From a virus, in IMG/VR virus record IMGVR_UViG_3300040801_000976, positions 62,001 to 126,000 of that record: DNA of 64,000 nucleotides. The stretch is one strand, 5' to 3'. The translations under genes and the position numbers were made by a program. Shown here one piece after another: positions 9,020-62,354 of the stretch (position 1 is the stretch's first letter; every line of letters starts with the position of its first letter). The notes below the pieces were generated by a model. The model was not told where the DNA came from. It ran no database searches and saw only the letters and a list, made by a program, of their open reading frames with translations.

Positions 9020-9036
9020 TACCACAAAAAATAAAT

Positions 9037-18000: not shown

Positions 18001-18579
18001 AATGACCCAGAACTAATAGATCGTCGTCGGATAATGGACGAAGAAGTATTGTTCTCAGATGTCTTACAGGCAAATGTTGAAGATAGAGTAAATTTATTAA
18101 GACAGTATTTTTCAAATGTCATAAATAATTACTATAATATAACTAGTCAAGCCAACGCAATTTCCATGATAAGAGAGGTATTAGAAACAGTACCAGATAG
18201 TTATGTGGGAAAAGCCGAATTAACCAAAGATATTACTGATTATTACAAAAATACTATTGTAGAGTCTCTAAGACCTACTTTTGCGGAGAGAGCTAGTTCT
18301 TTGTTTGCAAACAACCAGGATTTTGTGGATAATGTGGATAAAGATATACAAAATTTAGTTATTAAAGAGGTAGTTCCTTTGATAGAATCTATGCAAAATG
18401 TAGATCAGTACCTGGAGTTTTTACAGCAAGGTACTCCATCAGATCCTACTAAACTAAATATGAATCACATAACTGCACAAAGTGAATTTTCAGATTTATT
18501 AAACGAAAGTTTGAGGATTCCAAACGAAGCAAAAGACAAGATACTGGAGGCTATAGATATAATGGTAGCATGTAAATAA
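9037..18579 (+). CDS. Giant virion protein 1 with embedded SF1 helicase domain, 3180 aa
   Basis: An uninterrupted 3180-codon frame, expected to be packaged with the RNA polymerase. The first ~60 residues are acidic and disordered. Residues ~1380-1800 hold a superfamily 1 helicase motif set: Walker A GAQGTGKT (1408-1415), Walker B/DEAD-like YDEIAD (1509-1514), motif III GDTAQ (1565-1569), an HPFRYR motif IV-like segment (1611-1616), motif V-like KGSEADYVLV (1734-1743), and motif VI-like SVIGRAHTF with Arg finger R1781. The motifs are in the right order and spacing for an ATP-driven 5'-3' or 3'-5' translocase. The rest is mostly helical, without motifs I recognise. In crAss-like phages the genes in this position encode virion RNA-polymerase-associated polypeptides. 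It is followed after 35 bases by giant 2. Helicase-type ATPase: confident. Its role (DNA intake, unwinding ahead of the virion polymerase or host DNA attack) is inference. Confidence 0.8.
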   Translation: MSDNIDKNINEDLTQQENNIEVVEQEVKDDVKQVDETKELSFFDKVIQAKTKPTETSYLPGKEDFKKELEERAGRELEDEEVDEAYKHISDYYNELAREELENAQVFSSFDYMFEGAEDDVNFVDEGDYQPTLDVTVETNSGAKRILDTWTDPTRSVRKGSILSKKWIDHNGEVRELNTDLFDGMVGNKEFANDEGKNIIGYTYLPSDPYARGTGLVKAFYEGEEPDGEVVSRWDANGRFLNGNDLDFSTWKVPIASTFNFAVNLVDTALALSENVSVIATHGGVTDTEFYKDLRDVRNKLQSFNVSKSDWDQQKMFTVNNMVDLGINVGLQLLTARGLATAFGKILGASAKSVKKLSAMQQTLQQTTDPVKKKALRSSIDKLTATIQKAGKGSQRSTLFMLGAMAAKDASQEAKHAGFTDLESAYIYAASLGGMMWVNQLSNLGFERVGLNRASKITNNISKRIFNENTAAKVVKNPKSLKGLVSKYSDDLIKKYKEATSKTGYASHMLSEATEEEAELLMQEVVNHTANLYSALGYREEDRPKFKTVFDEGYWGEFMTESVMSVLGGAMGGAMARGLFIPKSELNKIKESELPVTGKEADAFKRVAYMSTRTQEGAQWEDMMMTKMKDKREKGLFGREDISTLWDKELGRYKRMTELTEEESEKYFSQAETAYRASMAQYQYYKLVFANESGKFEDIVKNNPNFAHLTESQQLQDATMDKIQRKSEILNSADLGTMEIDTLITKLSDTKNKLKKDEDGKVDDAKYQEELTEVSGATKLSVKDVEELVEINQFQKDVSSGAILENAFIDLQLTSENYRDVFSPETFRMLIESDSEAQDSYQESKLLLKELQDKMSESFDKVSEEGGLTDEQKSILLSGKAVLNPDTKERLLEVVRNTGVPLVERKKAAAMHVLNSMKTNGLLQNEEKYYGQQLNFLANLEKTVNTDPSALPQTIEGMLDKIPPDYEVYPFTQNEEVEAVKLAYANKTLKKIATAKSESELSDILYDEKDVTAANYAADYATPDFPFAGTSLEGEPLMFNESPNAAPIYDAVGFSEDAKEKAQLLDAINNTQSVENADENRPDALFDFDDSNPNKIKYLTSSLEEKYLSLTGGEENPRTFANLSGAKKLADKLRMRIKQLHFLVENVPALLTIQQINEEQFGELRDDLTYFTKHLNKIVDTKAIRENDAYKSQYLLNLVQQQVSLIKLLEKTERLTKLAENSSVDLQKAYFGDAVSYASDSIESVSAVFLRDGGQAVIQSNPALEGIEDLTIGLNYEDTDQINVKKLFDSLYEIRRKLQKARVDNPKFVDELVTHLSDKKGTDKSLINTILLTLSPSDYIFSRMRSVYDEAIKAADSVEKLEALQLPTISQLRLAEEAVTASTTSFLYYANILRGSKTKMLPIAVFSGAQGTGKTQVVGKDAAKYAQEVLYKLEQDKASNKLPKILFASNSESQAKNLRVSAEKGDVVSGSLEGKKDVTQEDLWNLFVGSDLSVKDIADKLTDIGAIFYDEIADVEFDASTAGVKKGFDNPKEAFVLNAILAKLSQVNDYRKSLKQEALVLIGLGDTAQGGYMEGSPSPRNPDGKEQLTGRVFSVTDPTTSVYKGSVELKHPFRYRVGELIKAPKEILEKLDPRMRLDSKEMQPVTFNYNFEEGTFTGVKKSNTWNDIINDEDLAQSIRTKLGAPNSGGNFTILVVTGKHSYDGVVDSNSALGKLLKEYEGDERILLRGFYNVKGSEADYVLVNMPKDHFIHSKEEVESPDFASPEQLTNRLRIMASVIGRAHTFTNIAVTGDYPIHSNKSTTTIIPVNETNEFKRAWSEMLSGAILSNYDVIPESVIPNIEVGKESDKSGFDTSVTDEEGIAGVSDPYTSSATESTEYANSVARELGIEELTEDNVIAARELAKELEDSSTGTDKDNAGSLKVLLNNIFSVIKNENEGEVISFDDSDPIGNNSSFQNMSDKKIMQEIEKQEGKILFFGQLGQEVTQQKSLESKRNYSSHLYDNVPSAENFKPEFYSALGLGPSGTSGMRDYKYHVVSYEFATQNRVQAFNHVIVAENKNGEKFIIGTLGKRANYDPNGDIAKWMDAREEKLKLITEAYANDEEVNVDEVLTPSERVSFSEMRNDFMLPDSGRRGSKFNKQNRFFIYNEVPNGANIIDGVTVGNTDSGNSVILNLAKQIDEVRAELPNIDKLSAGEFVKSKLDDADTVNRIDSFKEKGKFIPVKDIVSTDTKQRINPFEIINGNMFYSIGGYDILGIKLRRGTVYFAKSTKAWVPVLGLNTTDNTLILDNESLKPGANYDAEFTKISNSLRNLRVDKNFQKKFSDSTFSERVASLMGYKTTIFSEISNKNNLKKELRRISTENTTNTFFGNSRLTLKTAIKLWNKTGAPYSISKPYVIMRGENAGKSMIFYSFDRSKNLLDMSEDAIMSEYNAMLDNMKNNPTAMTSNRNNLGYILLDSKPTTIQELNELYLGVSNKGITDKFNKVVIRGNAESRLISLLAHLHIAINRPTSTSKVYQLLEDVDDNINKDAVYSWVKSKGDSQLKDISTVLRSIFQDENLGKIAMTNTDEALNNFIEDIKKYKDNRQMLDSIYDSYYSVNATQELLDRYGINKNNMTDLLITGGEGSVGKIVLNKHGVPAVYGTESTVIKYIPSSLVNSLSQGEKSSITPSLDLLKMFTLIHSTSLTEDSKNNIFEQLDEIMPNIDGLGKGLMVSPLAVDNKNPISRAITSTKQPLSEMLTTNVKQIKEPSIVFDVHTELDSISTPRKQFRVAEEKSSENKNLSETTYEDRIKSSDLRELSRIQKEVNKDNSLSSDEKLNISLKIKERVKSLRGEGSSVFDFRKMSLVEFVGDTVTPEVKVVLEQFDKLRPVIKNKEELDNIWVQGLITTLNNQLNSQISKYISNIQQSSGEMVQLSDIQVVEAAKTIVENNESIPKLDIEGFDVSSLELKWDTNQDNMGNRLAMLLSWSVAEGDEKAKLRDMLLTNPNDPELIDRRRIMDEEVLFSDVLQANVEDRVNLLRQYFSNVINNYYNITSQANAISMIREVLETVPDSYVGKAELTKDITDYYKNTIVESLRPTFAERASSLFANNQDFVDNVDKDIQNLVIKEVVPLIESMQNVDQYLEFLQQGTPSDPTKLNMNHITAQSEFSDLLNESLRIPNEAKDKILEAIDIMVACK

Positions 18580-18614
18580 TCTAGGATTAACATATTAAAA
18601 AAAATAAGAGAAAG

Positions 18615-21600
18615 ATGAAAAGAAAGATCAGTTGTGTTCCAACACTTTCGTCTATTTCTCAAAGAATGGTTAATAGCATTAAAAAAGGAAAAGGTATGGC
18701 TCCTAGTGAGTTATACCTTTTTGTTGTTAAAGATGTTATGCCAACTATTCTAGGAGAACAAGATGTCCGTAAAGAATTAGATAATATTGCCAAAGGTGAG
18801 TTTAACAGTAACTTGGGTGAGTTGCTCATGGGAATTGGTATGTCTATAAACCAGATAGCCAAACTTAGTAATGATAAGTCGCAGACTGTAAGTACTACGG
18901 ATATGATTTCTATCTGGAGAGATACATCAACCAAACTATTAGCCAACTTAGAACCAACTCCGGGTAGTGGTGTATCTAATATCAGTTTAGACGAAAACAC
19001 TACTCAAGAATTAACAAGCGACGATGAAGTAGAGGCACCCTCTAAAGTAGATACTGAAGATATTCCTGGGGAAATTTCTATAAGGAAACCTTTAGGGTCT
19101 AAAAATATAAACGAAGTGTTAGACCACTACCTGGTAGGAGATCTACGTAAAATACCTGATAGTTTACAATCATTCTTCCAAAGTATGATAAGTAAAGTTT
19201 GGTTAAGTGGAGATAATCAGACTAATTTCACTAGCGAGGCTATAAAAGCAAAATTGAGAGATAGTCTAAATGCTGTTGTACGGAATTATTATTCCGGCAA
19301 TGCGGTAGAAATGATCACATCTTCTATTGTTAGTCGTAAAAATTTTATCTCTACAGACAACCTAAATACCTTGATATTTAACGCAGAGTCAGCAATACCT
19401 TCCGATAGTAAACTTGTACATGAAGATGTAGATTTTGGTATTAAATATTATACTAACTCTAGTATATTAGGTACCGATAATATGCCTATGTTACTTGTAG
19501 TAGGTGAGGATCCTACTATGATGTTGGAACAATTCCTGACAAACGAAGAATTATTTGGTGAAAGAGCTGGTAATAATACTGTTATACCAGAATCGCTACA
19601 AGATGGTATAGATAGAAAATATAGTTCGATAGATAGAGAAACAGTTCAAGATAATTACTACATACCAGAGGTTAGAAATACTTATTTCGCACAGATTATT
19701 AACAACGAGTTAGATACTTTTATTAGGTCTTACGCACCAATGTTAGATAGTACCTATAAAGAAATATTTAGAACTTCGTTTGGTGATATACAATCTTTTG
19801 GTAGTAGTATGGCAAACAAACTTACAAAAATCAACATTTCTACCACACCTTTATTATATAAAGGTAGAGAAGCTAAGGATGTTAAATCTTCCCTAGGGTC
19901 ATTAAAGTCAGAATTATCTAAGTCCTCTAATTATTACGGAACACTAGCTAACTCTTCTTTACTATCAGAACTGGATACTAACGGTAATAAAATGATTTCA
20001 GTTAGGTTAGATAATAAAGAATACAGCGGTGTTATGTTGGATCTAGGACCTAAAAATCTTATCGTAGTCAATGACGGAAACTCCTGGTTAGTACCTATAT
20101 CTAATGTTGATGGAGATGTAAGTATGGTACAAGCTCAGGAATTATTTAGGGATAGTAGTAACATTGATATGTTCTATGAAGCAGCTGTCATATCCGCTGT
20201 AGATTTTTTAAATAGAAATGCCACGGATATTGAAGGATTACGAAATAATACTACAGAAGCTAAATTCGATAAAAGTACATTTTTCAATATTATCAAAAAT
20301 ACCAACACACCTCTAACAGAAGATGTGGATAATATTAATCTATTTTCAAATGAGGGAGGGAGAAAGTTTTTACAAGAGTCTGACTTAGAAATAGCTTCTG
20401 AAGTATTTCAATTTTTACCTGGTAATATAGCTGACGCGTCTAGGTACCTGGCTAGAATAGCATCTGATACAAGCTCGGTGTACAAAGATATAGCTAGGTC
20501 ATTATACTATAGATTTTTTAAAAAAGGTAAATACTTAGTAACTTCTATAAACCCAGAAACCGGTAGACTGGAGACCACAGAACAAATGTCTATGTATGAA
20601 AGATATCATAGATTTAATGATACAGTGGCGCGAAATTCATTAATCTCGCTAATGGTTCAGTTAAGATCCTCGTCGTTAGATAATAAAGCAATGGTTCAAG
20701 ATAACGAATTCATCGTTACAAATGTACAAAAAGGAACCACATTACAATCACTTATCTCCGAAATAGAAAATTCAAATACAGAATATTTTGCAGGTAAACG
20801 TGTAACACCAGACAAGGTATATGAAAACTTTACTGTAAAGGAATTAAGAGGTAATGAGTATGCTATAGAGTTTTATAGATTTAGTAGTAAATCTTCTCCA
20901 GATATTAAATTTTATATCAAAGACTTGGGTACCAATAACGACGGTAGAGCTAAAGGAAATAAATTTGAGGTTGTTGAAAAAGATGACTCAAGTTCACTGA
21001 ACCTTGAAAATATCGGTATATTATCGGGGTTTATGGGTTTACCAGCATTTTTATCTAACAAAAACTTCTACAACCAACTATATGATGACTCCGTTACCGG
21101 AAATGATGTAAGTAATTTCTTCGCTAATGTAATAGCACTAAAATTAGCAAACGGGAATAAATTGTTAGGTAATAAAAATTATACAAGTTCTGGTGCTTCA
21201 AAACTAGCCCTAGTAAGATCAGAAGGTGACATCAAACATACTTTCGCCAACAACATGTATGGTTATACTAATTTATTAGATACTACCATAGAGAAAGTCC
21301 TAGGTAACTCCAAAAGAGCCTATATAATGAGTCCTGAGGGTCATAAATTGTCCGTATCCATAATTACTAACAAAGCTAAGTCGAAGCAGGAGTTGGTGGA
21401 CCAGGTAAAGGATAATAAACTGTCTGAGTCAAATTTATATCGACATAGCGAGTTTGCTACTGGTGATATGAGGTTAACCAATAACGGTGTTACTAAAAAC
21501 GGTATTCGTGTAGGTGTTGACGGAAAAGGTAACGCAAAGCTGGATAGTTTAGAACACGTTATCTACTTGATGGAAAACGCATACTTGGCTCATGCAGAAA

Positions 21601-34676: not shown

Positions 34677-35240
34677 ATGACAGAAATAAAATTAAAAACA
34701 AAATCAACCAGTAATCACGTAGAATATGCTGGCAATAAAGGTGTACTAGAATTAATGCAAAGGCAAGTAGATCACGAATTTGAGAATGAACGTCTATACC
34801 TCTCTATGTCTATATGGTTACATAGTAATGGATTTATTCAAACAGCTAAATTTTTTAGCAGACATTCTGTAGAAGAACGAGGTCATGGAATGGATTTTAT
34901 AAACGCTATGTTAAAACAAAAAGTAGCAATAAAAACACCTTATACAACGGACATAGAGCGTGATTTTACAGATGTTAGAAGTCTTTTGGTAATAGCAGTA
35001 GAACAAGAAGAGAAGACGTCTAAAATGATACTAGAATTGCATAAGAAAGCTATAGAAGAAAATAGTTTATTCTCGGAAGTAAGTACTAAATACGTAGAAG
35101 AACAGATGGAGGAAACACAATTATTTAACTCTTTATTAAATCTATATGATTTGTGTGATGGGTCTAAAATAGATTTTGAACTTGAGGTTTTAGCACTTAA
35201 AGATTCTAAGAATAATAAATATAAAATGGGTATGTTATGA
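34677..35240 (+). CDS. Ferritin
   Basis: 187 residues, close to bacterial FtnA in length over its four-helix bundle. The ferroxidase-site residues of FtnA have clear counterparts: E38 (NERLYLS), E67 and H70 (VEERGHGMD), E111 (VEQEEKT), and Q143 with the following acidic pair (YVEEQMEETQLF). Ferritins oxidise Fe(II) and store iron as a mineral in a 24-subunit shell. The first ~18 residues extend beyond the usual start, with no signal peptide. It follows giant 3 by nine bases and is coupled by ATGA to the next ORF, so it is expressed with late genes. It could limit Fenton damage in infected gut anaerobes, sequester iron or be packaged. The family call is very secure; a phage-borne ferritin in a late operon is unusual. 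Confidence 0.95.
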   Translation: MTEIKLKTKSTSNHVEYAGNKGVLELMQRQVDHEFENERLYLSMSIWLHSNGFIQTAKFFSRHSVEERGHGMDFINAMLKQKVAIKTPYTTDIERDFTDVRSLLVIAVEQEEKTSKMILELHKKAIEENSLFSEVSTKYVEEQMEETQLFNSLLNLYDLCDGSKIDFELEVLALKDSKNNKYKMGML

Positions 35241-35461: not shown

Positions 35462-35493
35462 AATAGCCGAGTCCAATTAAGGGCCCGGCTATT
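35462..35493. terminator. Bidirectional terminator at the convergent junction
   Basis: An 8-bp perfect outer stem (AATAGCCG / CGGCTATT) continues after one mismatch into four more pairs around an AATTAA loop. On the - strand the stem is followed by a run of eight T residues; on the + strand by CTGGTTTT. It sits between the last + gene and the first - gene, so it stops both converging transcription units. Confidence 0.88.
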
Positions 35494-35862: not shown

Positions 35863-35913
35863 TTTGATACTTTAATTTAAAATTAATAATTATATCTATA
35901 AACCACACCGTAG

Positions 35914-35987
35914 TTGACCTGGGAAGATTTGAACTCCCAATCTTCTGGACCAAAACCAGACGTGTTAACCAATTACACTACAGATCA
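35914..35987 (-). tRNA. tRNA-Gln (anticodon TTG)
   Basis: A full cloverleaf on the - strand: a 7-bp acceptor (TGATCTG with CAGGTCA, one wobble), anticodon stem TCTGG/CCAGA around loop TTTTGGT, and a T-arm with TTTGAAT. The 3' CCA is not encoded (the sequence continues ACT). Confidence 0.94.
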
Positions 35988-35996
35988 GTATTTAAG

Positions 35997-36069
35997 TAGC
36001 CCATAGGGGATTCGAACCCCTGTTACCAGGATGAAAACCTGGCGTCCTAAACCTCTAGACGAACGGGCT
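35997..36069 (-). tRNA. tRNA-Glu (anticodon TTC)
   Basis: Acceptor AGCCCGT/ATGGGCT, anticodon stem CCAGG/CCTGG with loop TTTTCAT, and T-arm AGGGG-TTCGAAT-CCCCT. The 3' CCA is not encoded. Only nine bases separate it from tRNA-Gln, so both probably come from one precursor. Confidence 0.96.
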
Positions 36070-36089
36070 ATTTATTTTAATTACACTAG

Positions 36090-36173
36090 TGGGGTATGTA
36101 GGATTCGAACCTACTCAGTCTTACGACATCAGATTTACAGTCTGACCCGGCTCTCCAACTCCGGCGCTACCCC
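36090..36173 (-). tRNA. tRNA-Tyr (anticodon GTA), class II
   Basis: Acceptor GGGGTAG/ATACCCC, anticodon stem CAGA/TCTG around CTGTAAA, a long variable arm (class II), and T-arm GTAGG-TTCGAAT-CCTAC. The 3' CCA is not encoded. Confidence 0.96.
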
Positions 36174-36316
36174 AGTGTAGAAGTCATCCACACCTCTTCT
36201 ACATGACAACTTTATGGTTTCGAATTGTTTTACGTCTTGTTCTGAAAGACACGTAGTATAAGGATTCTAAGTACTACACCGCACGCTTGTTGCTTCACCA
36301 TGAACGCGATAGGGTA
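36174..36316 (-). other. Noncoding spacer with hairpins between tRNA-Tyr and the exported protein
   Basis: No ORF or convincing tRNA. It contains a perfect 7-bp stem-loop (36177-36183 with 36196-36202) right at the 5' side of tRNA-Tyr, and a second inverted repeat (GTAGTA...TACTAC) further on. These could be processing signals for the tRNA precursor or part of a small RNA. Confidence 0.4.
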
Positions 36317-36592
36317 TTAAGGTAATTGTGTTTTTATCATTTCGACCACTAAAGTATCATTATTAATATGTTTATTACATATAGAATAACCATAGTAAGA
36401 GATTATTGGATGGTTAGTATTAATTTCTGCCACACCAGACTCATCTGTATAAGTTACCTCGGTAGAATTATGTTTATAAACAAAAGCTAACGGTATAGGT
36501 TTGTTTGTTAACTTATCTTTAACAACCACTACCATACTATTAATATTTAAAGACCATAATAATAATGTAATAATAACAAATAGATTTTTCAT
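36317..36592 (-). CDS. Small exported protein with carboxypeptidase-regulatory-like beta domain
   Basis: 91 residues. The N-terminus is a typical signal peptide (MKN, hydrophobic LFVIITLLLWSL, then NINS before the mature part). The remainder matches the start of carboxypeptidase regulatory-like / TonB-receptor N-terminal beta-sandwich domains: VVVKDKLTNKPIPLAFVYK, then a TYTDESGVAEI turn (the T.TDE.G signature), ending in short strands. Such domains are abundant in Bacteroidota outer-membrane transporters (SusC-like). The gene lies alone between tRNA genes, behind an A-run leader. A protein exported to the host periplasm or surface could modify the receptor or block superinfection; that is inference. 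The domain call is moderately secure, the signal peptide secure. Confidence 0.7.
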   Translation of the reverse strand: MKNLFVIITLLLWSLNINSMVVVVKDKLTNKPIPLAFVYKHNSTEVTYTDESGVAEINTNHPIISYYGYSICNKHINNDTLVVEMIKTQLP

Positions 36593-36748
36593 TTTTTTTT
36601 ATACTGAGTAGTATAAAAAGTGGTTTTTAAAATACCCCAGAACCACTAAACTGCGCCAACCTACGATTTGGACATTACCGTATCACCCATATTTACACTG
36701 GGGAGAGGGTTATATGTGTCTTCGATCTCTGGTACCTTAGAGCTTGTG
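36593..36748 (-). other. Noncoding spacer with stem-loops upstream of the exported-protein gene
   Basis: No ORF. A 7-bp stem (36619-36625 with 36641-36647) and a small ATACT/AGTAT hairpin (36601-36614) followed by an A-run lie immediately before the start codon at 36592. A D-arm-like TTGGCGCAGTTTA is present, but no T-arm follows, so no tRNA is called. Confidence 0.35.
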
Positions 36749-36823
36749 TAACCCCTCTGGGACTTGAACCCAGGATCCCCGCCTTAAAAGGGCGGCTCTC
36801 TAACACAACTGAGCTAAGAGGTT
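36749..36823 (-). tRNA. tRNA-Lys (anticodon TTT)
   Basis: Acceptor AACCTCT/AGGGGTT, D-arm with AGCTCAGTTG, anticodon stem CCGCC/GGCGG with loop CTTTTAA, T-arm CTGGG-TTCAAGT-CCCAG. The 3' CCA is not encoded. Confidence 0.96.
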
Positions 36824-37135
36824 AAATGTACCTGGTGACTAACCTAAAGTTTGGTACAAAACTACAACTGTTTACATAACATCTCCCAGACAGTTGCCTA
36901 CGGTTGGGTTTAAACTGAAAACCTCACTCTCCTAAAACAGTTGGTTTTAAAGATTAACCAAAACTACTTAGTATCGTTAAGCTAACGAACTATGCACGGT
37001 AACCGTTTGCATAGATTAAACGGTACATTAAAGTGTGTAGCACTATCAGGTGTTTTAGCTTCAACACACTGTAAAAAGCCGAACTAACGATATTCTACCG
37101 GTATATTAACGTAATATACAACGAGTCAATAGTAT
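36824..37135 (-). other. Hairpin-rich noncoding segment upstream of tRNA-Lys (candidate ncRNA)
   Basis: A stretch of 312 bases without a plausible ORF but with six inverted repeats: CAACTGT (36865-36871) with ACAGTTG at 36890-36896 or, alternatively, 36937-36943; TTGGTT/AACCAA (36941-36961); CGTTA/TAACG (36975-36987); a two-part stem CTATGC-ACGGT with ACCGT-GCATAG (36990-37014); AGTGTGT/ACACACT (37032-37080); and GTATATTA/TAATATAC (37101-37119). Some arms can pair in two ways. It may hold a structured small RNA, an attenuator before tRNA-Lys or processing signals. Confidence 0.4.
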
Positions 37136-37513
37136 TTAAACACGATTTTCGGGAAATTCTTCCGGATCAGGCTCTGTAAGAATTAATTGTTTTAATCTAT
37201 CTTCATCCGGAATATATTGACCATGTTCGTTTTTAGTTATATAGTTTTGATATAAAAAATCAGTGGATTCTTCTTCCAAGATATTTTTTATAATAGATTC
37301 CCAAGACTTAAACGGCGTAAAGTGTAGCCGATACAAGTAATTACAGATTTCCTTAGCTTGTGCCTTTACAAAATTATACTGAAATTCTTTTTTATCGCAC
37401 GTTGTAAGAAAATTAAATTCTTTTTTTATCTTTTCCTGAAATTTAAAAACTTTATCAAACTCTGCTTGTTCTTTTTTTTCTACCTCTACATTAATAGTAT
37501 TCATATAAAACAT
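37136..37513 (-). CDS. Uncharacterised helical protein, 125 aa
   Basis: Not recognised. It is charged and helical, rich in Lys/Glu and aromatic residues, with two Cys (TTCDKKEF near 38 and EICNYLY near 56) and an acidic C-terminus rich in Glu and Pro. The start could be the first Met or Met4 (37504). It is the last protein gene before the tRNA-Lys segment and lies 71 bases downstream of the phosphoesterase of the RNA-repair module, probably in the same transcript. An inverted repeat (37527-37558) in front may mark a separate control point. No function can be given. Confidence 0.6.
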   Translation of the reverse strand: MFYMNTINVEVEKKEQAEFDKVFKFQEKIKKEFNFLTTCDKKEFQYNFVKAQAKEICNYLYRLHFTPFKSWESIIKNILEEESTDFLYQNYITKNEHGQYIPDEDRLKQLILTEPDPEEFPENRV

Positions 37514-37526
37514 TTTACATTATTTC

Positions 37527-37558
37527 CTAGTAACAATATTATAGTAAATTTTTACTAG
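37527..37558 (-). promoter_or_regulatory. Inverted repeat upstream of the 125-aa gene
   Basis: Two 7-base arms (CTAGTAA and TTACTAG) are separated by 18 AT-rich bases, located 14 bases before the start codon. On the - strand the loop holds TATAATATTG. It could be an operator or a weak hairpin; no promoter match is secure. Confidence 0.3.
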
Positions 37559-37584
37559 AAAGGAAACTAAGAAATAATAAATTT

Positions 37585-38316
37585 TTACCCTCTGGTTTTA
37601 TTATCATGATGATCTATGGAAATTATTTTTTGTTGGTCCATGATAACTCTTAATTGTTGATATTCAATTGGAGAATAAGAACCATAGTATTTGTATAGAT
37701 TATCAATTCCAACATCAAATATCTTACCGTTAGTATACCAGTGGTTTGACCCTACCCACTGTATATTTAACTTATTGTTTAATGTACCATGACAATGCCC
37801 ATGAATCATCCAAGAGCCTTTGTAAGAGTGGTCCCAAGATACCATAGGAAAATGAGACAAAATTATTTCTTGTTTATCTACAATTATTTTTAAATACTCA
37901 TGGACTTCGGAGAATAAAGCTGTAGCAGGTGTATTTCCCGATTCACCTTCTTGTGGTTTACGTAACATGTCATCTATTGTCCAATAACAATTCGGTAGTG
38001 TTACATCATTTATAATGTGGTCGTCATGGTTACCAGCAATAAAGTAAATTTCTTTACACAAAATTCTCTGTCTAAAATCAAATATACTTTCTTTACCTCC
38101 AAAAGACCAGTCACCCACAAAAATTAACACATCCTCTTGTGACACAGTATTATTTATAGACTCTATAATACACTCATTCATTAATTCCAGAGAATCAAAG
38201 TCACGACATCCTTCCTTATTTTCCCACTCGGAAACTCCTCTACAAATATTTTTATGGTTATAGTGAAAATCTGCAGCAAAAAATATTTTACGTTCTTTAG
38301 ATTTAAATTTAAGCAT
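37585..38316 (-). CDS. Calcineurin-like metallophosphoesterase of the RNA-repair module
   Basis: 243 residues with the full metallophosphoesterase motif series: AADFHYNH (D16, H18), GDWSFGG, IAGNHDDH, LSHFP and IHGHCHG. Two metal ions bind here and hydrolyse phosphate esters. The N-terminal spacing (DFHYNHKNI) is that of the small phage/COG4186-like enzymes. The stop overlaps nothing downstream, but its start shares a base with the end of the kinase gene (38316), so the two are tightly coupled. In bacterial Pnkp a kinase, this phosphoesterase fold and a ligase are joined in one chain to repair cut RNA; here the equivalents are separate, adjacent genes. Enzyme class: certain. RNA 2',3'-phosphate removal as its job is inferred from context. 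Confidence 0.88.
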   Translation of the reverse strand: MLKFKSKERKIFFAADFHYNHKNICRGVSEWENKEGCRDFDSLELMNECIIESINNTVSQEDVLIFVGDWSFGGKESIFDFRQRILCKEIYFIAGNHDDHIINDVTLPNCYWTIDDMLRKPQEGESGNTPATALFSEVHEYLKIIVDKQEIILSHFPMVSWDHSYKGSWMIHGHCHGTLNNKLNIQWVGSNHWYTNGKIFDVGIDNLYKYYGSYSPIEYQQLRVIMDQQKIISIDHHDNKTRG

Positions 38317-38729
38317 TATAAATTATATCTTTTATAAAATGACCTTATCACTTTAAACCCCACACATCGACCACCTAGTAAACCTCGTTTTATATCTCTA
38401 AGAACAGATAAAATTATGGGTGTTTCAAACTTTTTAATTGTAATGTCACAACCAGTACTTAATCTGCGTAACTTTTTTAATGTTTTATTATTTAAGTTTG
38501 TAGCATCTACAATAACATTATAACCGTGGTCTAATGCTGTTGTTAAAGTACTATGTTCTATTTCCGTTACTAAAACTTCCCTACCAGGCACCCAATAATC
38601 CCCTAACATAGATCTTATTGAATCTCTATTCACAATAATCCATCTATCGGATTTATTTTTAACAAAAGACCTGGCCCAGGTACTTTTACCTGAAGCCGGA
38701 GGTCCTTGCAATATTATAACTTTCTGCAT
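38316..38729 (-). CDS. Polynucleotide 5'-kinase (P-loop), kinase domain only
   Basis: 137 residues, matching the T4 Pnkp-type kinase domain: Walker A GPPASGKST (9-17), the NRDSIR motif (34-39) with the catalytic-type Asp36, a VDATN strand end and a C-terminal Arg-rich lid (RDIKRGL...RCVGFKVI). The enzyme moves the gamma phosphate of ATP to a 5'-OH of RNA or DNA, creating the end needed by a ligase. No HAD-type phosphatase domain is fused, unlike T4 PseT; the neighbouring metallophosphoesterase may replace it. It is separated from the ligase gene by seven bases. The call is secure; RNA rather than DNA as substrate is inferred from the ligase type. Confidence 0.88.
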   Translation of the reverse strand: MQKVIILQGPPASGKSTWARSFVKNKSDRWIIVNRDSIRSMLGDYWVPGREVLVTEIEHSTLTTALDHGYNVIVDATNLNNKTLKKLRRLSTGCDITIKKFETPIILSVLRDIKRGLLGGRCVGFKVIRSFYKRYNL

Positions 38730-38736
38730 GTTTATA

Positions 38737-39999
38737 TTAATTTAAATCTTCTTGATCAACCACTCCTTCATCTCTTAGTTTAGATTCACCGAGTCTAAAA
38801 GCATCGGATTTATATTTTAAAGCTACCCACTTACCGTGTCTATCAATAAACCAAACCACAACACCTTCTTTAAGAGTGTCTTTTGCCATTTCGGACTGTC
38901 CTTGAGCGTAAGCAATAACCTTTTCTTCTAGAATTTCCAAAGATCTATCGGTTCCTAAATAATAGAATTTCTCAAATAAATGAGGTTTCTCAAATCCTAG
39001 CTCTTCAGCCCTATTGTAAACATACTCTCTATTATAATCAACAGTTTTACCATCTTCATTATTCATGGTTATCCTATAAAGCAGAGAACGATAATTACCG
39101 GCCTCACATCCATAAGGAAATCCTTTTTGAATATGCGAACCTGTTTTTTCGTAACCAAATAGTTCTAAATATAGTTGTTCACCTTTAAAGAGTAAACCTT
39201 TAACTTTATCAAGAACCTCTTCCCTCATTGTGTTTTCATGATAAGGATTAACCCTTTTTTCTGGAGAATGAATAACACGTCTAGTTCCATTTATATATTC
39301 CCATGAAGACACAGAACTACTACCCGTTAACCTACCTTCTTTTTTGGTAGAGAATAAATTCCAAACAAACCTTTTAATCTTTCTTATGGGATTTTCTGTT
39401 ACATAAATAACTCTACCGGATCTATGAGAAGTACCGTGAATTTTTTCTTCAATATAACAAACAGTACCGGCAGGTATTTTATGTTTATTACGCATGAAAT
39501 GTTCAGTAGAAAAATGTTCCTTAAACATAGGTACTTCTAATTTTTTCTTAGACTTTTTAGATTTATTGTTTGAAGAAGAAGAGTAATTTCTGGTTGGTGG
39601 AATATATTTTTCACAAAATTTAACACCATTTATACTGTCGAGTTCTGTTCCTATCTCTAAAGAAATATCCTCTTTCAAATATTTTAAATAACTAACAGGA
39701 AACAGAAATCCGTCACTAATCTCACCGCGTAATTTTATACACTTCACGCGACCGTCGTCTTCAAAAAAACCCGATTTAGAGTTATCTTTGTTTAGTTCAC
39801 TATGTCTATACAAATTATTATTATGTAAGAAATCAGGTAATATTCTCATATTAGAATCAACATATATCATAATATCACCCTTTCTAGTTTCTTTACCAAC
39901 AACAACTTGCGTACCAAATATTTTAGCAAGTAATAATTTATCTGCGTTAGGATGGTTTTCTATTTTAGCTAATTTTACCACCGCTGCTTGATTATTCAT
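38737..39999 (-). CDS. RNA ligase (DraRnl/Rnl5-like)
   Basis: 420 residues. The N-terminal ~120 residues form an OB-type domain (AKIENHPNADKLLLAKI, as in the Deinococcus RNA ligase and tRNA-binding-like folds). The nucleotidyltransferase domain has motif I K-x-H-G-T (K186 in EEKIHGTS, the lysine that takes AMP), a LYLELFGY motif III-like segment, KEGVVVWF (motif IV) and ALKYKSDAF (motif V). The enzyme seals 3'-OH/5'-phosphate nicks, and the Deinococcus type prefers a nicked RNA 3' side. It lies between the nucleotidyltransferase gene and the kinase gene. A Lys/Ser-rich linker at ~140-155 separates the domains. Identity as an RNA ligase is confident; the subfamily is by memory of the domain layout. 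Confidence 0.88.
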   Translation of the reverse strand: MNNQAAVVKLAKIENHPNADKLLLAKIFGTQVVVGKETRKGDIMIYVDSNMRILPDFLHNNNLYRHSELNKDNSKSGFFEDDGRVKCIKLRGEISDGFLFPVSYLKYLKEDISLEIGTELDSINGVKFCEKYIPPTRNYSSSSNNKSKKSKKKLEVPMFKEHFSTEHFMRNKHKIPAGTVCYIEEKIHGTSHRSGRVIYVTENPIRKIKRFVWNLFSTKKEGRLTGSSSVSSWEYINGTRRVIHSPEKRVNPYHENTMREEVLDKVKGLLFKGEQLYLELFGYEKTGSHIQKGFPYGCEAGNYRSLLYRITMNNEDGKTVDYNREYVYNRAEELGFEKPHLFEKFYYLGTDRSLEILEEKVIAYAQGQSEMAKDTLKEGVVVWFIDRHGKWVALKYKSDAFRLGESKLRDEGVVDQEDLN

Positions 40000-40117
40000 A
40001 ATTATATAAATTTTTATTTATTTTGTATCTAGTTTAATTTTAATAATAAGATCATTTACTAAATTATTAGAAACTTTAGTAGGTAAAGTTGTTTTATCTA
40101 TAACTTCGTCAAACTCT

Positions 40118-41098
40118 TTAATTTTTTTCTTCTGCTAAATCTATTAAATAATCATAGTCAAAATCTCCTTTACGTACTTTTAATAACCAATCTCTATTAG
40201 GTCTTTTTAATATTAATTTACCCTCTTTACATGCCTCAATACCCATCTCTAATAATCTAAAACAATGCATTAGATTTTTACCATCGTAACCTTTTCCGTG
40301 TTTCTGATTAGCATCATATCTTACAGGATTTCTTTTTTCGACCCATTCCCAATATTCTTTATATTCTTTACAGTAAGAAGAATATCCTTCATGGTTACAA
40401 TATATTAGATTATAATTTGCTATAGCTTCCTTAGGTATAGAAGATAATCTTAATTCATTTGAATGTTCTCCGACTAAACCCTTATAGTTATATTTATTAT
40501 TATTAAAATATAGATAATAAATGTTATGAACATTGTTTGCTTTAGATAACCCATAATTTTCTTGGCGAACAGCAGGTCCCCGTTGTATTTTAAACCAATC
40601 TTTTAACGAAGTTGTTCCTAATGCAGTAAATATATAACAAAAATCTAATATATCTTTTTTCTCTTTACTTACGGGATTCAACACCTTTTTATTTAATCCT
40701 CGTGCTTTCTTAATCTGCCCCATAGCATACCCACCCAAACTATAACGTATATTTTTAGTAAGAAATTTATCTTTCTCATTTAGTATCAAATCATACTTTC
40801 TGGTTTTTGTTATAATTTTATCTTCTGGAACATACAATAATTCTAGGATATTTGGATTTGCTGACTGTGCTAATTGTAAAAATCTTCTTACTTCATAATA
40901 AACAATATCATTTTTCTCGTCATCTATTTGAATTGGAGCATTTAGTTTTAAATAATCGCTAATAGGTAGATTAAATACACCTTTTACATCTGTATCGGAA
41001 GTAGGTAATTCTAACCCATACAACCTACTCCCAACTACAGAGTAAAAAATTATGTTATCGGATTTTAATAATTCATCTATAGACATATGTCCAATCAA
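40118..41098 (-). CDS. RlaP-type (COG3541) nucleotidyltransferase, C-terminus frameshifted
   Basis: 326 residues. The N-terminus has the Pol-beta nucleotidyltransferase core GSRLYGLELPTSDTD (G23-S24, D35, D37), then FLQLAQSANPNILELLYVP and GGYAMGQI, which I know from COG3541/RlaP, the predicted nucleotidyltransferase found beside RNA ligases. It probably transfers nucleotides to RNA ends before sealing. The frame ends at 40118 after a run of seven A, but shifting by one base opens 33 further codons (to 40018: KIKEFDEVIDKTTLPTK and onward) that look like the usual helical C-terminus of the family. So the natural product may be ~360 residues. The start overlaps the upstream 86-aa gene by 26 bases; Met5 is an alternative start. 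Confidence 0.85.
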   Translation of the reverse strand: MIGHMSIDELLKSDNIIFYSVVGSRLYGLELPTSDTDVKGVFNLPISDYLKLNAPIQIDDEKNDIVYYEVRRFLQLAQSANPNILELLYVPEDKIITKTRKYDLILNEKDKFLTKNIRYSLGGYAMGQIKKARGLNKKVLNPVSKEKKDILDFCYIFTALGTTSLKDWFKIQRGPAVRQENYGLSKANNVHNIYYLYFNNNKYNYKGLVGEHSNELRLSSIPKEAIANYNLIYCNHEGYSSYCKEYKEYWEWVEKRNPVRYDANQKHGKGYDGKNLMHCFRLLEMGIEACKEGKLILKRPNRDWLLKVRKGDFDYDYLIDLAEEKN

Positions 41099-42420: not shown

Positions 42421-43356
42421 TTAATTATTTATTAATTCTAAGAACTGCTTATTGTTTAGTACAAATCCAGCAGCACCCTTATGTCCACCACCCTCATATT
42501 GTTTAGCAATAACAGAACAATCAACTTCTCCATTATCGTTATAAAGGCTAAACTTCCAATTTACTCCATCATAATGAAAACAAGCACACCCATCATATCC
42601 ATCTTTATGATAATCAATATCAAAATTAGCAGGATTAAATCTTTCTTTATTAATGCAGATGAATTTTAAGGTATCTAAACATGTATGTCCTAAATCAATA
42701 TTAAATTGAACTTCAAATCCATTCTTATAAACTTGTTTGGCTTCCGTGCAGAGATATTGATAAATAGATTTGCCTTTAGAAAATATTTCATTTAAAGTAT
42801 CACTTTCTCCATGTTTTTTATCGGAAATAAAATATAGTAAATGTTCATAAGCTTCTTCATAGCTACTAATGCACTGCATTGCACCATATTGAAATTCTAA
42901 TACTTTTTGTTCTTCATCTGTATTTTTATGACGAAAGCTATCATACATTCCAAGTAATCTAACTATTTCAGGCATAATTTCGTTAGGAAAGAAGTATTTC
43001 CAAGTTAGTTCACAAGCTGCAAAATTAGTGTCTCTTAAACCTTTATATACTAAATCGTTATTATCTTTTATTGCAGAAATATGGTGATCAATCCATATCA
43101 ATTCTTTATCAAGATTATGCCAAAGTTTAGACATCTCTTCTTTAGGAAAACTAATATCACACATTATTACTTTATCGTATTCTGATAGATCTGGTATAGG
43201 TTGTCCATAGTTGTAACCTATAAACTCAATAGTATTAATTGGTTTTTCTTTTTTATTTGGGATTTCTTGTTGATTAAACCAATATTTAACTATTGCTGCT
43301 GACATCCAACCATCGAGGTCGATTGAATGATATATACAAACTATTTTACTCATCAT
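42421..43356 (-). CDS. DHH-family phosphoesterase (nanoRNase/RecJ-like)
   Basis: 311 residues. The DHH domain is clear: HSIDLDGWMSA (a D-x-D-G metal motif near 10-20), an ICDISFP strand and IDHHIS (~90-95). The C-terminal DHHA1 motif is GGGHKGAAGFVL (~290-302). These enzymes use Mn ions to cleave short oligoribonucleotides, cyclic dinucleotides or single-stranded DNA. Length and the single DHH-DHHA1 pair fit oligoribonuclease (NrnA/NrnB-like) rather than RecJ, which is longer. It might degrade signalling nucleotides of host defence or recycle RNA fragments. It overlaps the upstream 265-aa gene by ATGA. Family secure; substrate unknown. Confidence 0.88.
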   Translation of the reverse strand: MMSKIVCIYHSIDLDGWMSAAIVKYWFNQQEIPNKKEKPINTIEFIGYNYGQPIPDLSEYDKVIMCDISFPKEEMSKLWHNLDKELIWIDHHISAIKDNNDLVYKGLRDTNFAACELTWKYFFPNEIMPEIVRLLGMYDSFRHKNTDEEQKVLEFQYGAMQCISSYEEAYEHLLYFISDKKHGESDTLNEIFSKGKSIYQYLCTEAKQVYKNGFEVQFNIDLGHTCLDTLKFICINKERFNPANFDIDYHKDGYDGCACFHYDGVNWKFSLYNDNGEVDCSVIAKQYEGGGHKGAAGFVLNNKQFLELINN

Positions 43357-55136: not shown

Positions 55137-55630
55137 ATTTTATTTTGAGATAATATTTTCCTTCTTGTTAATTCTTTATAAAGTAATTTAAACTCTTCTA
55201 AAGAATAAACAATATATCCTTTATATCCTTTTAACTTAAACAACTTCCATCGTAGTTTAAAAACTTCATCAGCATAACCTTTAATCTCTATGTATACATC
55301 AAACTCAGGTAAGTAATAATCAGGAGTATAGTGTATTTCTTGCTGTGAAATACTTTTAATTTCTCTTTTATTGCGTTTTTCCTTTCTTGCTTTAGCAGTT
55401 TGTCTGGGTTTCTGGAATTCTTCGGTATTTACTGAATCAAATAATTTTAATGTAATTTGAGTTTTAAAAGAGATACCAGAATCCTTCAGATATTCCCAGA
55501 CTTCCCATTCCAGTTTACTATCAAAATAACGTTTACCAGGATTATTTTTTATCCAAGATTTTAAATTCTTTATAGCTACACCGTTTTCATCTACTTTATT
55601 TACAACTACTCTTCCAGCGTATCGTGCCAT
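55133..55630 (-). CDS. PD-(D/E)xK nuclease, DUF1064-like
   Basis: 165 residues. The core is FDSKLEWEVWEYLKDSGI (the F-D-S-K-x-E helix, ~36-53), TPDYYLPEFDVYIEIKGY (catalytic D, then E-x-K at ~103-120), and a final helix-strand (KLRWKLFKLKGYKGYIVY). This is the plan of DUF1064-type endonucleases and Holliday-junction-type resolvases found in phage replication clusters. A Lys/Arg-rich insertion (~80-92) probably contacts DNA. The start overlaps the chaperonin stop by 25 bases. It may resolve branched recombination intermediates together with the RecT-like protein. Nuclease fold: likely; specific role: inferred. Confidence 0.78.
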   Translation of the reverse strand: MARYAGRVVVNKVDENGVAIKNLKSWIKNNPGKRYFDSKLEWEVWEYLKDSGISFKTQITLKLFDSVNTEEFQKPRQTAKARKEKRNKREIKSISQQEIHYTPDYYLPEFDVYIEIKGYADEVFKLRWKLFKLKGYKGYIVYSLEEFKLLYKELTRRKILSQNKI

Positions 55631-57195
55631 ACATCATCTTCTGTTATTATAAAATTTTTAGAATTTAATATTGTTGTAGCGATGGCTAATGCTTGTTGTA
55701 AAGCTTTAATTTGAACATCAACCGGATCTAAAATACCCAATTCTAATGGCAATCCTTGCTTGCCTGTTCTAAGATCTACTACAAGTCCTTCGTTATATAA
55801 ATTTAATAAATCATCTATATTTAATTCTGTATCCTTTATTAGTACATTTATAGGAGATTTACATAATGTTTCCATGTGAGAAGAAGAGAATTTTAATTTT
55901 TCCTCAACCCATGCTTTATATAATATGTAACCCGCACCGGGTACTACACCACTTCTAATAGCAGAAGAAACTGCTTGTACAGCATCATCTATCCTATCCT
56001 TTTGTTCTTTCATAGCTGATTCTGTAAAACCACCTACACGTATCGTAGCTGATTTATTGAATTTAGATAATCTCTTTTTTAACTGAGATAATTCACCCGT
56101 TTTAGAATCACCAGAAGATTTTATCTTTTCTATCTTAGATAAAATTAATTTTTTACGTTCTAAAGCATCCATATTATCTTCCAACATCTTATCCTTTAAT
56201 AACACAGTCTGATTGGGAGAAATTATAGCTTTATCAACAACACTTAGATCTTCTTGCAAATTCATTATAGATAAATTTGCAGAATTAACATCGGTAGTAA
56301 GTACTTTTGTATTTAATATTATAGACATATCATCCATAATATCATAAAAAGTATGGGCAAAACCGTCTGCTTCTACTAAAAACAAAGAGGTTAAGTTCAT
56401 GGCGTTATTACGATATATTATATCTACAATATCTTTAGTAAATTCTTTTGCTATTAAAATAATACTACCGTCTCTTTGTGTTTTAACAGAATTAGCTATT
56501 TTTAACAAAGATTTGATAGAAGATATATTAGAAATTTTATCTGAACATAAAACTACTTGAGGTTTATATAACTCTTCTGTTTTATACACATGTGCTTTAG
56601 TATACATAGACATACCATCAGTAATATGTACAGTAGTTTGATGGGATTCTGATTCTTCTACTTCTAGTATACCCTCAAATCCAATTTTATCTATAGCGTG
56701 TGCTATAATATCTGTAACTTCTGTATCACCATTTGAAGATATATTAGCAACAGCATCTACTATATTTCTAGAATTAACATTTATAGTATTTCTCTTTATA
56801 AAATCAATAATAATGTCAATATCTTTTTTAACCGACTTCAAATGTTGTATTCTAGAAGTGTGATTTTTCGATACCGCAAATATACTTTTAATAAGAGATA
56901 TAGCTAATAAAATAGAAGTAGTAGTACCATCACCCACCGTTTTAGCTGTTTTACGCGCTGTCTCTTTTACTATTAAATTAATAGCTTGTTCAAAAGGATC
57001 TTTAAAATTTAAAAATTCAGAAACACTAACTCCGTCTTTAGTTATATGTGGTGAATTAATACCGTCAAATAGCACAGCTGTATTTCCGTTCGGACCCATT
57101 GTACTAATAACTGTACTATTTATTTTATTTAATATTCTTAATAACTTATCTTTTACTTCTTTATCAGAAATATCTAAAATATTTACTGGTTTCAT
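55606..57195 (-). CDS. GroEL-type chaperonin (Cpn60), divergent
   Basis: 529 residues, near GroEL length. Equatorial motifs: STMGPNGNTAVL (31-42), HITKDGVSV (D54), VGDGTTTS (D89, ATP site), and near the end SGVVPGAGYILYKA and GLPLELGILDPVDVQIKALQ (the ATP-hydrolysis loop Asp). The apical part is recognisable but strongly diverged. It forms double rings that refold proteins with ATP; GroEL partners a GroES lid, but no groES-like gene is visible here, so it may use the host lid or work without one, as described for some large phage chaperonins. It may help fold the giant virion proteins. The gene overlaps the nuclease gene and lies 11 bases after the DNA ligase gene. Family certain. Confidence 0.93.
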   Translation of the reverse strand: MKPVNILDISDKEVKDKLLRILNKINSTVISTMGPNGNTAVLFDGINSPHITKDGVSVSEFLNFKDPFEQAINLIVKETARKTAKTVGDGTTTSILLAISLIKSIFAVSKNHTSRIQHLKSVKKDIDIIIDFIKRNTINVNSRNIVDAVANISSNGDTEVTDIIAHAIDKIGFEGILEVEESESHQTTVHITDGMSMYTKAHVYKTEELYKPQVVLCSDKISNISSIKSLLKIANSVKTQRDGSIILIAKEFTKDIVDIIYRNNAMNLTSLFLVEADGFAHTFYDIMDDMSIILNTKVLTTDVNSANLSIMNLQEDLSVVDKAIISPNQTVLLKDKMLEDNMDALERKKLILSKIEKIKSSGDSKTGELSQLKKRLSKFNKSATIRVGGFTESAMKEQKDRIDDAVQAVSSAIRSGVVPGAGYILYKAWVEEKLKFSSSHMETLCKSPINVLIKDTELNIDDLLNLYNEGLVVDLRTGKQGLPLELGILDPVDVQIKALQQALAIATTILNSKNFIITEDDVWHDTLEE

Positions 57196-57205
57196 ATTTT
57201 ATTGT

Positions 57206-58321
57206 TTAATCAGGTCTTTTAATATCAATACATACAGGAAATCTTAAACTTCCATCTGGAGTTTCACCAAAATGTCGTACAGTAGCATTTTCACCTATTA
57301 ACTCTTCAGCATTATCTAAAAGATATTTACAATACTTCCAAGAACCTCTAATCCCACAACCTACAAATTTATCATTATGTTGGATGAATACTGTTCCGGC
57401 AATATCGTATTTATTCCCTTTTCCTGCAACTATATCATGTATTTTAAATTCCTCTGTTATAAATTGTTTAATTTTCATTAAGGTTTTTGTTCTCTTATTT
57501 ACATAAGGTGAATCATATACCCGCGCAATACTACCTTCATACCCATCAAGTAAATGTCTTTTAGTGCATTCTTCGAACTGGTCCTTGGTAGTCACAACTT
57601 CCCATTCTACTAATTTTATATAATCGCATTCGACTAAATGATTGTTTAACCATCTTTTACGTTCTATAGCAGGCATATCAGGATTAGCTGAATCATGAAT
57701 ATCGTAAACATGGTACTCTAACTTTTCTTCAGAAATCTTTAAATCTTCAACCGATGGTTTAGTTTTTCTAGCAATACTCATTAAAGTATTAAAATCTTCT
57801 TTAAATTCATGGTTATAGATTTCTCCGTCCAATCTGATTGTAGGATATTTTCTATAAAATTTTTTAAGAAAATTTTTTATATGAGGTACAGTAGGGATAT
57901 TTTTACCTTTTCTACTTATACATTCTTCATAAACACTGGTCATACGCATACCATCAAGTTTTGGATCAAGTATTAGAGGAAAAGTTTTATCTTTATCTTT
58001 TACTTTATCCCATTCAACAGCTAACATAGGTTTAAAAAATTTACCGTCGATATTCTCTAACGCTTCTTCTTTTGATGTAAAATAACCCTCATTAACTTTT
58101 TTAGTGTACTTTGCTAAAATTTCAGCATCTGCTTGTTGTACACTTGTAGTTTCATTAGATCTTCCAATATTCTTTGGTTTGCACACAGTCCATTTGGAAC
58201 TAACTAAGTTTCCCTGGTCAACACCAGTTACCATCCTGTATTTTTCTTCCTCTTGTTCTATAAAGTAGACTCTTACTTTATTAGCAGAGTCTACTTTAAA
58301 TAGTTTATGATGCTTAATCAT
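57206..58321 (-). CDS. ATP-dependent DNA ligase with N-terminal WGR-like domain
   Basis: 371 residues. Nucleotidyltransferase motif I is KLDGMR (K121 takes AMP), then SRKGKNIP, LDGEIYNHEF (motif III), EGSIARVYDSPY (motif IV) and LMKIKQF (motif V), followed by a short OB domain (GTVFIQHNDKFVGCGI). The first ~85 residues (VYFIEQEEEKYRMVTGVDQG..., ending VNEGYFTS) look like a WGR domain, a small DNA-end-binding fold known from PARPs and some bacterial and phage proteins. The enzyme seals nicks during replication and recombination. It is overlapped by eight bases by the upstream phosphoesterase gene. Ligase certain; the WGR call is moderate. Confidence 0.9.
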   Translation of the reverse strand: MIKHHKLFKVDSANKVRVYFIEQEEEKYRMVTGVDQGNLVSSKWTVCKPKNIGRSNETTSVQQADAEILAKYTKKVNEGYFTSKEEALENIDGKFFKPMLAVEWDKVKDKDKTFPLILDPKLDGMRMTSVYEECISRKGKNIPTVPHIKNFLKKFYRKYPTIRLDGEIYNHEFKEDFNTLMSIARKTKPSVEDLKISEEKLEYHVYDIHDSANPDMPAIERKRWLNNHLVECDYIKLVEWEVVTTKDQFEECTKRHLLDGYEGSIARVYDSPYVNKRTKTLMKIKQFITEEFKIHDIVAGKGNKYDIAGTVFIQHNDKFVGCGIRGSWKYCKYLLDNAEELIGENATVRHFGETPDGSLRFPVCIDIKRPD

Positions 58322-61715: not shown

Positions 61716-62354
61716 TTAAAGTGTTGTGTTTTCAGACATATTCTTTTTACTAACAGTACCGGCTTTAGATTTTAATCTAAGTTCAAAATCATCGAATTTT
61801 AAATCAGATTCTTTCTTAATCATGGGCTCAACGAACGAGCCTTTAGATGGAATATCTGTGTCTTCACCTTTATAATTAGGTACCATTTTCACTCGAAGTG
61901 GTTGCTCTGAAGAATTTATATATGGTTTGATTGCCTCCGAAAAAATCGAATTGAGTTTTTCCATTAAAGATTTAACTTCGCTTTTTTTCCACTTTTTTGA
62001 TTCTATATCAACAGTATCCGTTATATCTTCAAATTCAGAAAAAACATCTTTAAATTTATCAACAGCTTCATCATATGACATAAATGCTTTTAGTATATCA
62101 ATTATTTGAAAACAAAACATTCTTAGATTAATGATAAAAAACTCACTGGTTGGATCTGGAGTCCACCAAGAAAGTTCAGTTTCACCTATCTTTTTGTCTT
62201 CTTTAAATTTAGCAAAAGTAATAAATAAATTTCTCTTTATCACTTCTCCGTTTCTGTTTTTTCTAGGATTAGGATCAACTCTTGTTATTCTACAATTATC
62301 ATGAATATCGGCAGTCAAATCCGCTACCTTTACTTTATTTAATAATGATGGCAT
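61716..62354 (-). CDS. Replication-cluster protein paired with the 236-aa gene, 212 aa
   Basis: Not recognised with certainty. A beta-rich start (KVKVADLTADIHDNCRITRV, cited as residues 6-25, then VIKRNLFITFAKF) and a SWWTPDPTSEFFI aromatic region (~63-75) lead to helices and a C-terminal tail rich in Lys/Ser. The aromatic/basic strands could bind single-stranded DNA. It lies 13 bases from the 236-aa gene and precedes the primase, so the pair may act at the fork as SSB and loader. Alternative: recombination mediator beside the RecT-like gene. Confidence 0.55.
   Translation of the reverse strand: MPSLLNKVKVADLTADIHDNCRITRVDPNPRKNRNGEVIKRNLFITFAKFKEDKKIGETELSWWTPDPTSEFFIINLRMFCFQIIDILKAFMSYDEAVDKFKDVFSEFEDITDTVDIESKKWKKSEVKSLMEKLNSIFSEAIKPYINSSEQPLRVKMVPNYKGEDTDIPSKGSFVEPMIKKESDLKFDDFELRLKSKAGTVSKKNMSENTTL

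Follow-up and report, generated by a model that had tools for sequence, protein, structure and literature searches.

A probable RNA end-healing and sealing gene cassette in a crAss-like phage and its relation to nearby tRNA genes

The DNA analysed here, referred to as the window, is a stretch of 64,000 nt corresponding to positions 62001–126000 of the 128,786-bp virus record IMGVR_UViG_3300040801_000976, and coordinates given without a prefix refer to it. On its minus strand, at 41098–37585, four genes lie in a row that encode an RlaP nucleotidyltransferase, an RNA ligase, a polynucleotide kinase and a metallophosphoesterase. We regard it as likely that they constitute an RNA end-healing and sealing kit with which a crAss-like phage counters host defence, and that the tRNA genes located downstream are a separate and exchangeable supplement. 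By its sequence, the record belongs to the gut-type crAss-like phages (Crassvirales): its terminase, portal and capsid proteins match the crAss-like families phrog_6681, 6547 and 11589, and a tblastn search with the terminase returned matches to Crassvirales records at about 24–30% identity.

The repair cassette and its recurrence

The cassette comprises the following genes, listed in the order of transcription:

40118–41098, minus strand: RlaP nucleotidyltransferase (Pol-beta fold); PF10127 E 1.2e-19, phrog_388 E 4e-49
38737–39999, minus strand: ATP-dependent RNA ligase with an N-terminal OB domain; phrog_968 E 4.7e-51, PF21189 OB fold
38316–38729, minus strand: 5'-OH polynucleotide kinase of 137 amino acids, kinase domain only; phrog_505 E 8e-31
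37585–38316, minus strand: calcineurin-type metallophosphoesterase; phrog_547 E 4.2e-41, PF00149

This agrees with the original prediction, made from the sequence alone, of four repair genes in a row; all four families were matched and the catalytic motifs are intact. The ligase, kinase and phosphoesterase genes are almost contiguous, with 7 bp between the first two and an overlap of 1 bp between the stop of the kinase and the start of the phosphoesterase, and 118 bp separate RlaP from the ligase. RlaP, which probably starts at the ATG at 41086, scores 71.4 bits against PF10127 (gathering score 23) and contains an intact nucleotidyltransferase motif, GSRLYG...SDTD, with residues G23, S24, Y27, S34, D35 and D37 invariant in 11 relatives. 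In the ligase, the adenylation motif KIHGTS is preserved, and K186, H188, G189 and other motif residues are invariant in 10 relatives. Its profile positions 14–132 match the N-terminus of the Naegleria RNA ligase (5cot) and positions 279–431 the core of T4 Rnl2, so that the order of domains, OB followed by the nucleotidyltransferase core, fits Rnl5-type RNA ligases (Naegleria and Deinococcus type). By sequence it is not related to T4 Rnl1, as no Rnl1 chain was present among the solved-structure matches.

The kinase contains the P-loop GPPASGKS, as expected for a T4-type Pnkp kinase domain. It covers only positions 1–141 of the 295-position phrog_505 profile and is devoid of the C-terminal HAD 3'-phosphatase domain. 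Its best solved relative is Pnkp1 (4xrp, E 8e-15), which serves as kinase-phosphatase in a complex of Capnocytophaga that can mend tRNA cleaved by ribotoxin in vitro (PMC4411300), followed by T4 Pnkp (1ly1, E 5.5e-9). In the phosphoesterase, the motifs DxH, GDxx, GNHD, SHFP and GHxH are intact, and the metal-site residues H18, G68, D69, G95, N96, H97, H155, G173, H174 and H176 are invariant in 22 relatives. The nearest solved fold to its AlphaFold model (predicted local distance difference test, pLDDT, 80) is 1xm7, followed by lambda phosphatase. Opening of 2',3'-cyclic phosphates is an activity of lambda phosphatase and also of the phosphatase of Clostridium thermocellum Pnkp. A DHH/DHHA1 phosphoesterase encoded upstream (42421–43356) was considered as a fifth member of the cassette and rejected, since 12 relatives of it were found without a nearby cassette gene; these relatives are mostly 52–67% identical, and repair genes do not lie alongside them.

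The kit of four genes recurs in other phages as a module. Since a single-protein search of viral contigs found no relatives of the ligase, they were sought by alignments, which gave 80 viral loci, of which 69 remained once near-duplicates (90% identity over 1 kb) had been discarded. Within 10 kb of the ligase, a kinase was found in 43 of the 69 loci, RlaP in 38 and the phosphoesterase in 31, and all four genes occurred together in 19; the association of RlaP with RNA ligases thus holds in these loci as well as here, where the two genes are neighbours. A search for RlaP yielded six loci (L244, L246, L271, L274, L275 and L288) in which the order ligase, kinase, phosphoesterase is kept and RlaP lies 4.5–7 kb off the ligase; no tRNA was detected in the stretch covered. 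Several large crAss-like records carry a short RlaP-like open reading frame (ORF; ∼130 amino acids) between ligase and kinase (L107:7996–8394, L111:10414–10809, L108 and L109), which phrog_388 missed, so that absence of RlaP in these records refers to the long form only. In close terminase relatives (57–67%), which are short fragments, no cassette gene was found. Contigs L254–L269 (∼40 kb), apparently prophages of isolates, mostly contain two RlaP-type genes 0.7 kb apart, with no ligase of the cassette's family within the DNA covered.

The best new mechanistic evidence comes from the pairing of kinase and phosphoesterase. The phosphoesterase is encoded within 600 bp of the kinase gene in 14 of the 18 cases in which the kinase consists of the kinase domain only, and in 0 of the 18 in which it has a C-terminal domain. 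Therefore, the phosphoesterase probably replaces in 3'-end healing the usual 3'-phosphatase domain, which is the second domain of T4 Pnkp. Calcineurin-like phosphatases in the 3'-phosphatase role have already been noted for a few jumbo phages (PMC7824862); the survey adds a simple rule, that a kinase without its phosphatase half is accompanied by a calcineurin-type enzyme encoded next door.

The proposed pathway would begin once a host ribonuclease has cut the RNA and left a 2',3'-cyclic phosphate and a 5'-OH, as anticodon nucleases usually do. The metallophosphoesterase would clear the 3' end, the kinase would phosphorylate the 5' end, RlaP would restore any nucleotides missing from the cut site, and the ligase would seal the healed ends. 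RlaP has been predicted to have this restoring function, with the excision of the wobble base by RloC given as an example (PMC7824862; PMC2610378), and in the literature searched no biochemical role of RlaP beyond prediction was found. The likeliest substrates would be tRNAs cut in the anticodon loop, in which case the kit would act as a counter-defence that keeps translation going.

Several observations weigh against this proposal. The structure model of RlaP is weak (predicted template-modelling score, pTM, 0.55). The solved folds that match it best belong to other nucleotidyltransferases, among them HalB, a defence enzyme, and nucleotidyltransferases that act on aminoglycosides, with E values of 0.04 or worse. 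The fold nearest to the phosphoesterase, 1xm7, has no known function, and members of the phosphoesterase family are also encoded apart from RNA ligases, as in the DNA replication block of Cellulophaga phage phi17:2. Finally, no host, and hence no host anticodon nuclease, emerged from a scan of genome contigs, which returned only contigs that are likely mis-binned.

The downstream tRNA genes

The cassette is followed on the same strand by four tRNA genes, and a fifth is located elsewhere in the genome:

37136–37513, minus strand: ORF of 125 amino acids between the cassette and tRNA-Lys; no Pfam or PHROG match
36748–36823, minus strand: tRNA-Lys-TTT, anticodon loop CTTTTAA; ARAGORN, RF00005 58.2 bits
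36317–36592, minus strand: ORF of 91 amino acids between tRNA-Lys and tRNA-Tyr; PF13715 (carboxypeptidase-regulatory-like) E 2.5e-5, below the cut-off
36089–36173, minus strand: tRNA-Tyr-GTA; ARAGORN, RF00005 40.2 bits
35996–36069, minus strand: tRNA-Glu-TTC; ARAGORN, RF00005 61.1 bits
35913–35987, minus strand: tRNA-Gln-TTG; ARAGORN, RF00005 64.8 bits
35462–35493, minus strand: hairpin followed by a T run, read directly from the letters; the only scored match is a sub-threshold STnc240
G000:20721–20795: tRNA-Met-CAT, among structural genes and distant from the cassette

The four tRNAs are real, each being called by ARAGORN and scoring above the Rfam tRNA threshold; comparison with E. coli tRNA-Lys yielded no match over the full length. 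The repair genes had been described as running into the tRNAs, which is correct as regards the strand but not as regards a direct run, as the first tRNA lies 762 bp past the cassette with ORFs in between. Because one ORF precedes tRNA-Lys and another precedes the Tyr-Glu-Gln trio, the tRNAs do not form one tight cluster. In the 635-kb phage LR745206 (L231), which contains repeated Tyr-Glu tRNA pairs in the same order as in the window, one of the closest relatives of RlaP is encoded elsewhere in the genome.

The cassette and tRNAs make up the end portion of a minus-strand gene block. This block converges at ∼35.5 kb, where the sign of the GC skew flips, with a plus-strand block on the left that contains the structural genes and giant ORFs. 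Judged from its sequence, the hairpin at 35462–35493 is probably the terminator of the minus-strand block. A scan of the interval between the cassette and the tRNAs showed no terminator-like site, the sole hit being one weak hairpin inside the kinase gene, and co-transcription of the cassette and tRNAs is possible.

None of the four tRNAs encodes its CCA end, as had been observed, and a need for additional 3'-end processing had been deduced from it. The absence of CCA is ordinary in this group and does not point to RlaP or a special 3'-end enzyme. Among crAss-like tRNAs found with Infernal, 102 of 109 have C74 and only 5 have CC, and across 142 crAss-like tRNAs C74 is present in 97% and C75 in 4%, with CAA or CTA as the commonest ends. 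C74 with C75 almost always lacking is the pattern of the tRNA genes in the window (35913–36823), L003:721–795, L110, L115, L214–L229, L230 and L231, a set that comprises crAss-like phages, a Cellulophaga phage and the 635-kb phage. The pattern may reflect tRNA processing in Bacteroidota, with CC being avoided for tRNase Z.

Coupling of the repair genes to the tRNAs, the central proposal of the original prediction, was not supported by comparison across phages. In 45 ligase-bearing records, 27 tRNAs were located within 5 kb of the ligase versus 54.9 expected, and 88 within ∼10 kb versus 115.8 expected; these ratios are approximate, as one locus per record was used, tRNAs near the ligase were called with ARAGORN and those of whole records with Infernal, and many records are fragments. 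In the same survey, 32 tRNA-bearing records had no tRNA within 5 kb of the ligase, and among 20 distinct contigs with the whole module only two had a tRNA within 2 kb. The module is therefore not characterized by physical linkage to tRNAs, and its pairing with them is accidental or at most genome-specific, and mostly ordinary.

In individual genomes either part is found without the other, an outcome that the original prediction had named as refuting the coupling. The nearest terminase relative in the annotated phage set, MT835470, has the ligase, kinase and phosphoesterase yet no tRNA; at 8688–19943 this 117-kb crAss-like phage (L012) encodes the ligase, a CCA-enzyme-like nucleotidyltransferase, a kinase-HAD protein and the phosphoesterase, with zero tRNA. 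Crass-like records of at least 95 kb contain 5, 0, 3, 3, 9, 21, 9 and 34 tRNAs when the ligase is present, and 28, 29, 2, 9 and 8 when it is not (G021, G031, G041, G045 and G034). Among the large crAss-like records, the present one and G042 are the only two in which the ligase has tRNAs at a distance of ∼10 kb or less. A close relative with 60% terminase identity (G004, a 32-kb fragment) has a cluster of five tRNAs for Met, His, Ala, Ile and Tyr (L115:114–1600), which adjoins its terminase, near the place where the present phage has its lone tRNA-Met.

Alternative readings of the locus

Under the coupling that the original prediction had raised as a possibility, the cassette and the tRNAs would form a single unit of counter-defence: host tRNAs that have been cut would be mended by the kit, and the four tRNAs would substitute for precisely those species. 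We consider this unlikely. The two parts share a strand with no clear terminator between them, and the U34 tRNAs for Lys, Glu and Gln are main substrates of PrrC, RloC and LshCas13a; a phage tRNA-Tyr rescues from retron-Eco7 and a phage tRNA-Lys from PrrC170 (PMC11555353). The fit of the four tRNAs to anticodon-nuclease targets in the literature is thus real, but the list of targets was drawn up after the tRNAs had been seen. Four random isoacceptors would all fall within the seven listed classes with P 0.003 under a uniform choice and 0.004 under the crAss-like background, and a wider published target list raises P to 0.14. Near the ligase, the target classes are not enriched (28/131), and they account for 21/63 tRNAs in ligase-positive versus 20/73 in ligase-negative crAss-like records. 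The lack of linkage and the different tRNA set of G004 also argue against a single unit. Agreement with PrrC, RloC and Cas13a for Lys, Glu and Gln, and with retron-Eco7 for Tyr, is a lead and not a test. Zymocin-type toxins, which had been named as a parallel, are yeast toxins; PrrC, RloC, PARIS, retron-Eco7/Septu and Cas13a are better bacterial parallels.

The tRNAs could instead be a codon supplement for an AT-rich phage, close to the kit by chance at the end of an early block, an explanation that we view as a possible one, somewhat short of even. Lys-AAA is the commonest codon, and of the 25 boxes ordered by codon demand Lys comes first and Glu second. However, Tyr ranks 11, Gln 16 and Met 19, and no tRNA is encoded for Asn, Asp, Leu and Val, although these are in high demand. 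The mean demand of the four tRNAs is high (P 0.04), with P 0.11 when all five are included, so demand explains the choice weakly, in a comparison that rests on the codon use of the phage and not of the host.

The locus might also provide two layers of protection against nucleases of U-rich anticodons (RloC, PrrC or host Cas13), with the kit and RlaP restoring tRNAs even without the wobble base and the Lys, Glu and Gln genes refilling the pool, although we give this little credence. Cas13a shows a preference for tRNAs of Lys, Glu, Gln and Thr, and the authors of that study propose phage RNA ligases as a possible means against type VI CRISPR (PMC11042736). The missing linkage in other phages is compatible with such a two-layer arrangement in this one. 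Least probable of all is that the cassette enzymes serve DNA ends or nucleotide metabolism and not RNA. Kinases of this type act on DNA as well, the phosphoesterase adjoins replication genes in phi17:2, and the phage handles DNA nicks with its own ATP-dependent DNA ligase (57206–58321); however, the cassette ligase falls into a family of RNA ligases to which that separate enzyme does not belong, and in jumbo phages RlaP accompanies RNA ligases (PMC7824862). We thus favor RNA end healing and sealing by the cassette, with the downstream tRNAs as a translation supplement that closes the gene block shared with the kit, without the two being a conserved functional unit.

Related systems and other features of the genome

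Among the closest known systems are those of jumbo phages built around RlaP and an ATP-grasp RNA ligase (PMC7824862), in which RlaP, ligase, polynucleotide kinase and phosphoesterase occur together, tRNA repair is predicted and tRNAs lie elsewhere in the genome; the present kit differs in being found in a 129-kb crAss-like phage. It shares the heal-and-seal logic and a related kinase domain with T4 Pnkp/Rnl1, which repair PrrC-cut tRNA-Lys, whereas its ligase is of another family, its phosphatase is of an unrelated fold and encoded by a separate gene, and RlaP is added. With Capnocytophaga Pnkp1-Rnl-Hen1 (PMC4411300) it has in common a kinase nearest to Pnkp1 in sequence, a separate ligase and, as a prediction here, the repair of ribotoxin-cleaved tRNA; in contrast, no Hen1 methyltransferase was detected among the cassette genes, the kinase and the phosphatase are two distinct polypeptides, and RlaP is again additional. 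Phage tRNAs that evade retron-Eco7, PrrC170 and PARIS include tRNA-Tyr and tRNA-Lys (PMC11555353, PMC12409363), but the sections of these reports cited here describe no repair genes, and protection by the present tRNAs is only putative. This kind of RNA-repair counter-defence is thus already known, and the analysis places a complete four-enzyme kit in a crAss-like phage. The kit is compact and would be a convenient set for reconstitution, and the results call for caution in reading tRNA clusters near repair genes as a single system.

Other genes were noted in passing. A ferritin-like protein (34677–35240, PF00210 E 1e-15) closes the plus-strand block, and a GroEL-like chaperonin (55606–57195, phrog_5725 E 4e-93) adjoins the ATP-dependent DNA ligase and exonuclease genes. 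In another record (L004:9989–12562), the capsid gene is apparently split by a homing-endonuclease ORF (11061–11948) in a group I intron-like arrangement.

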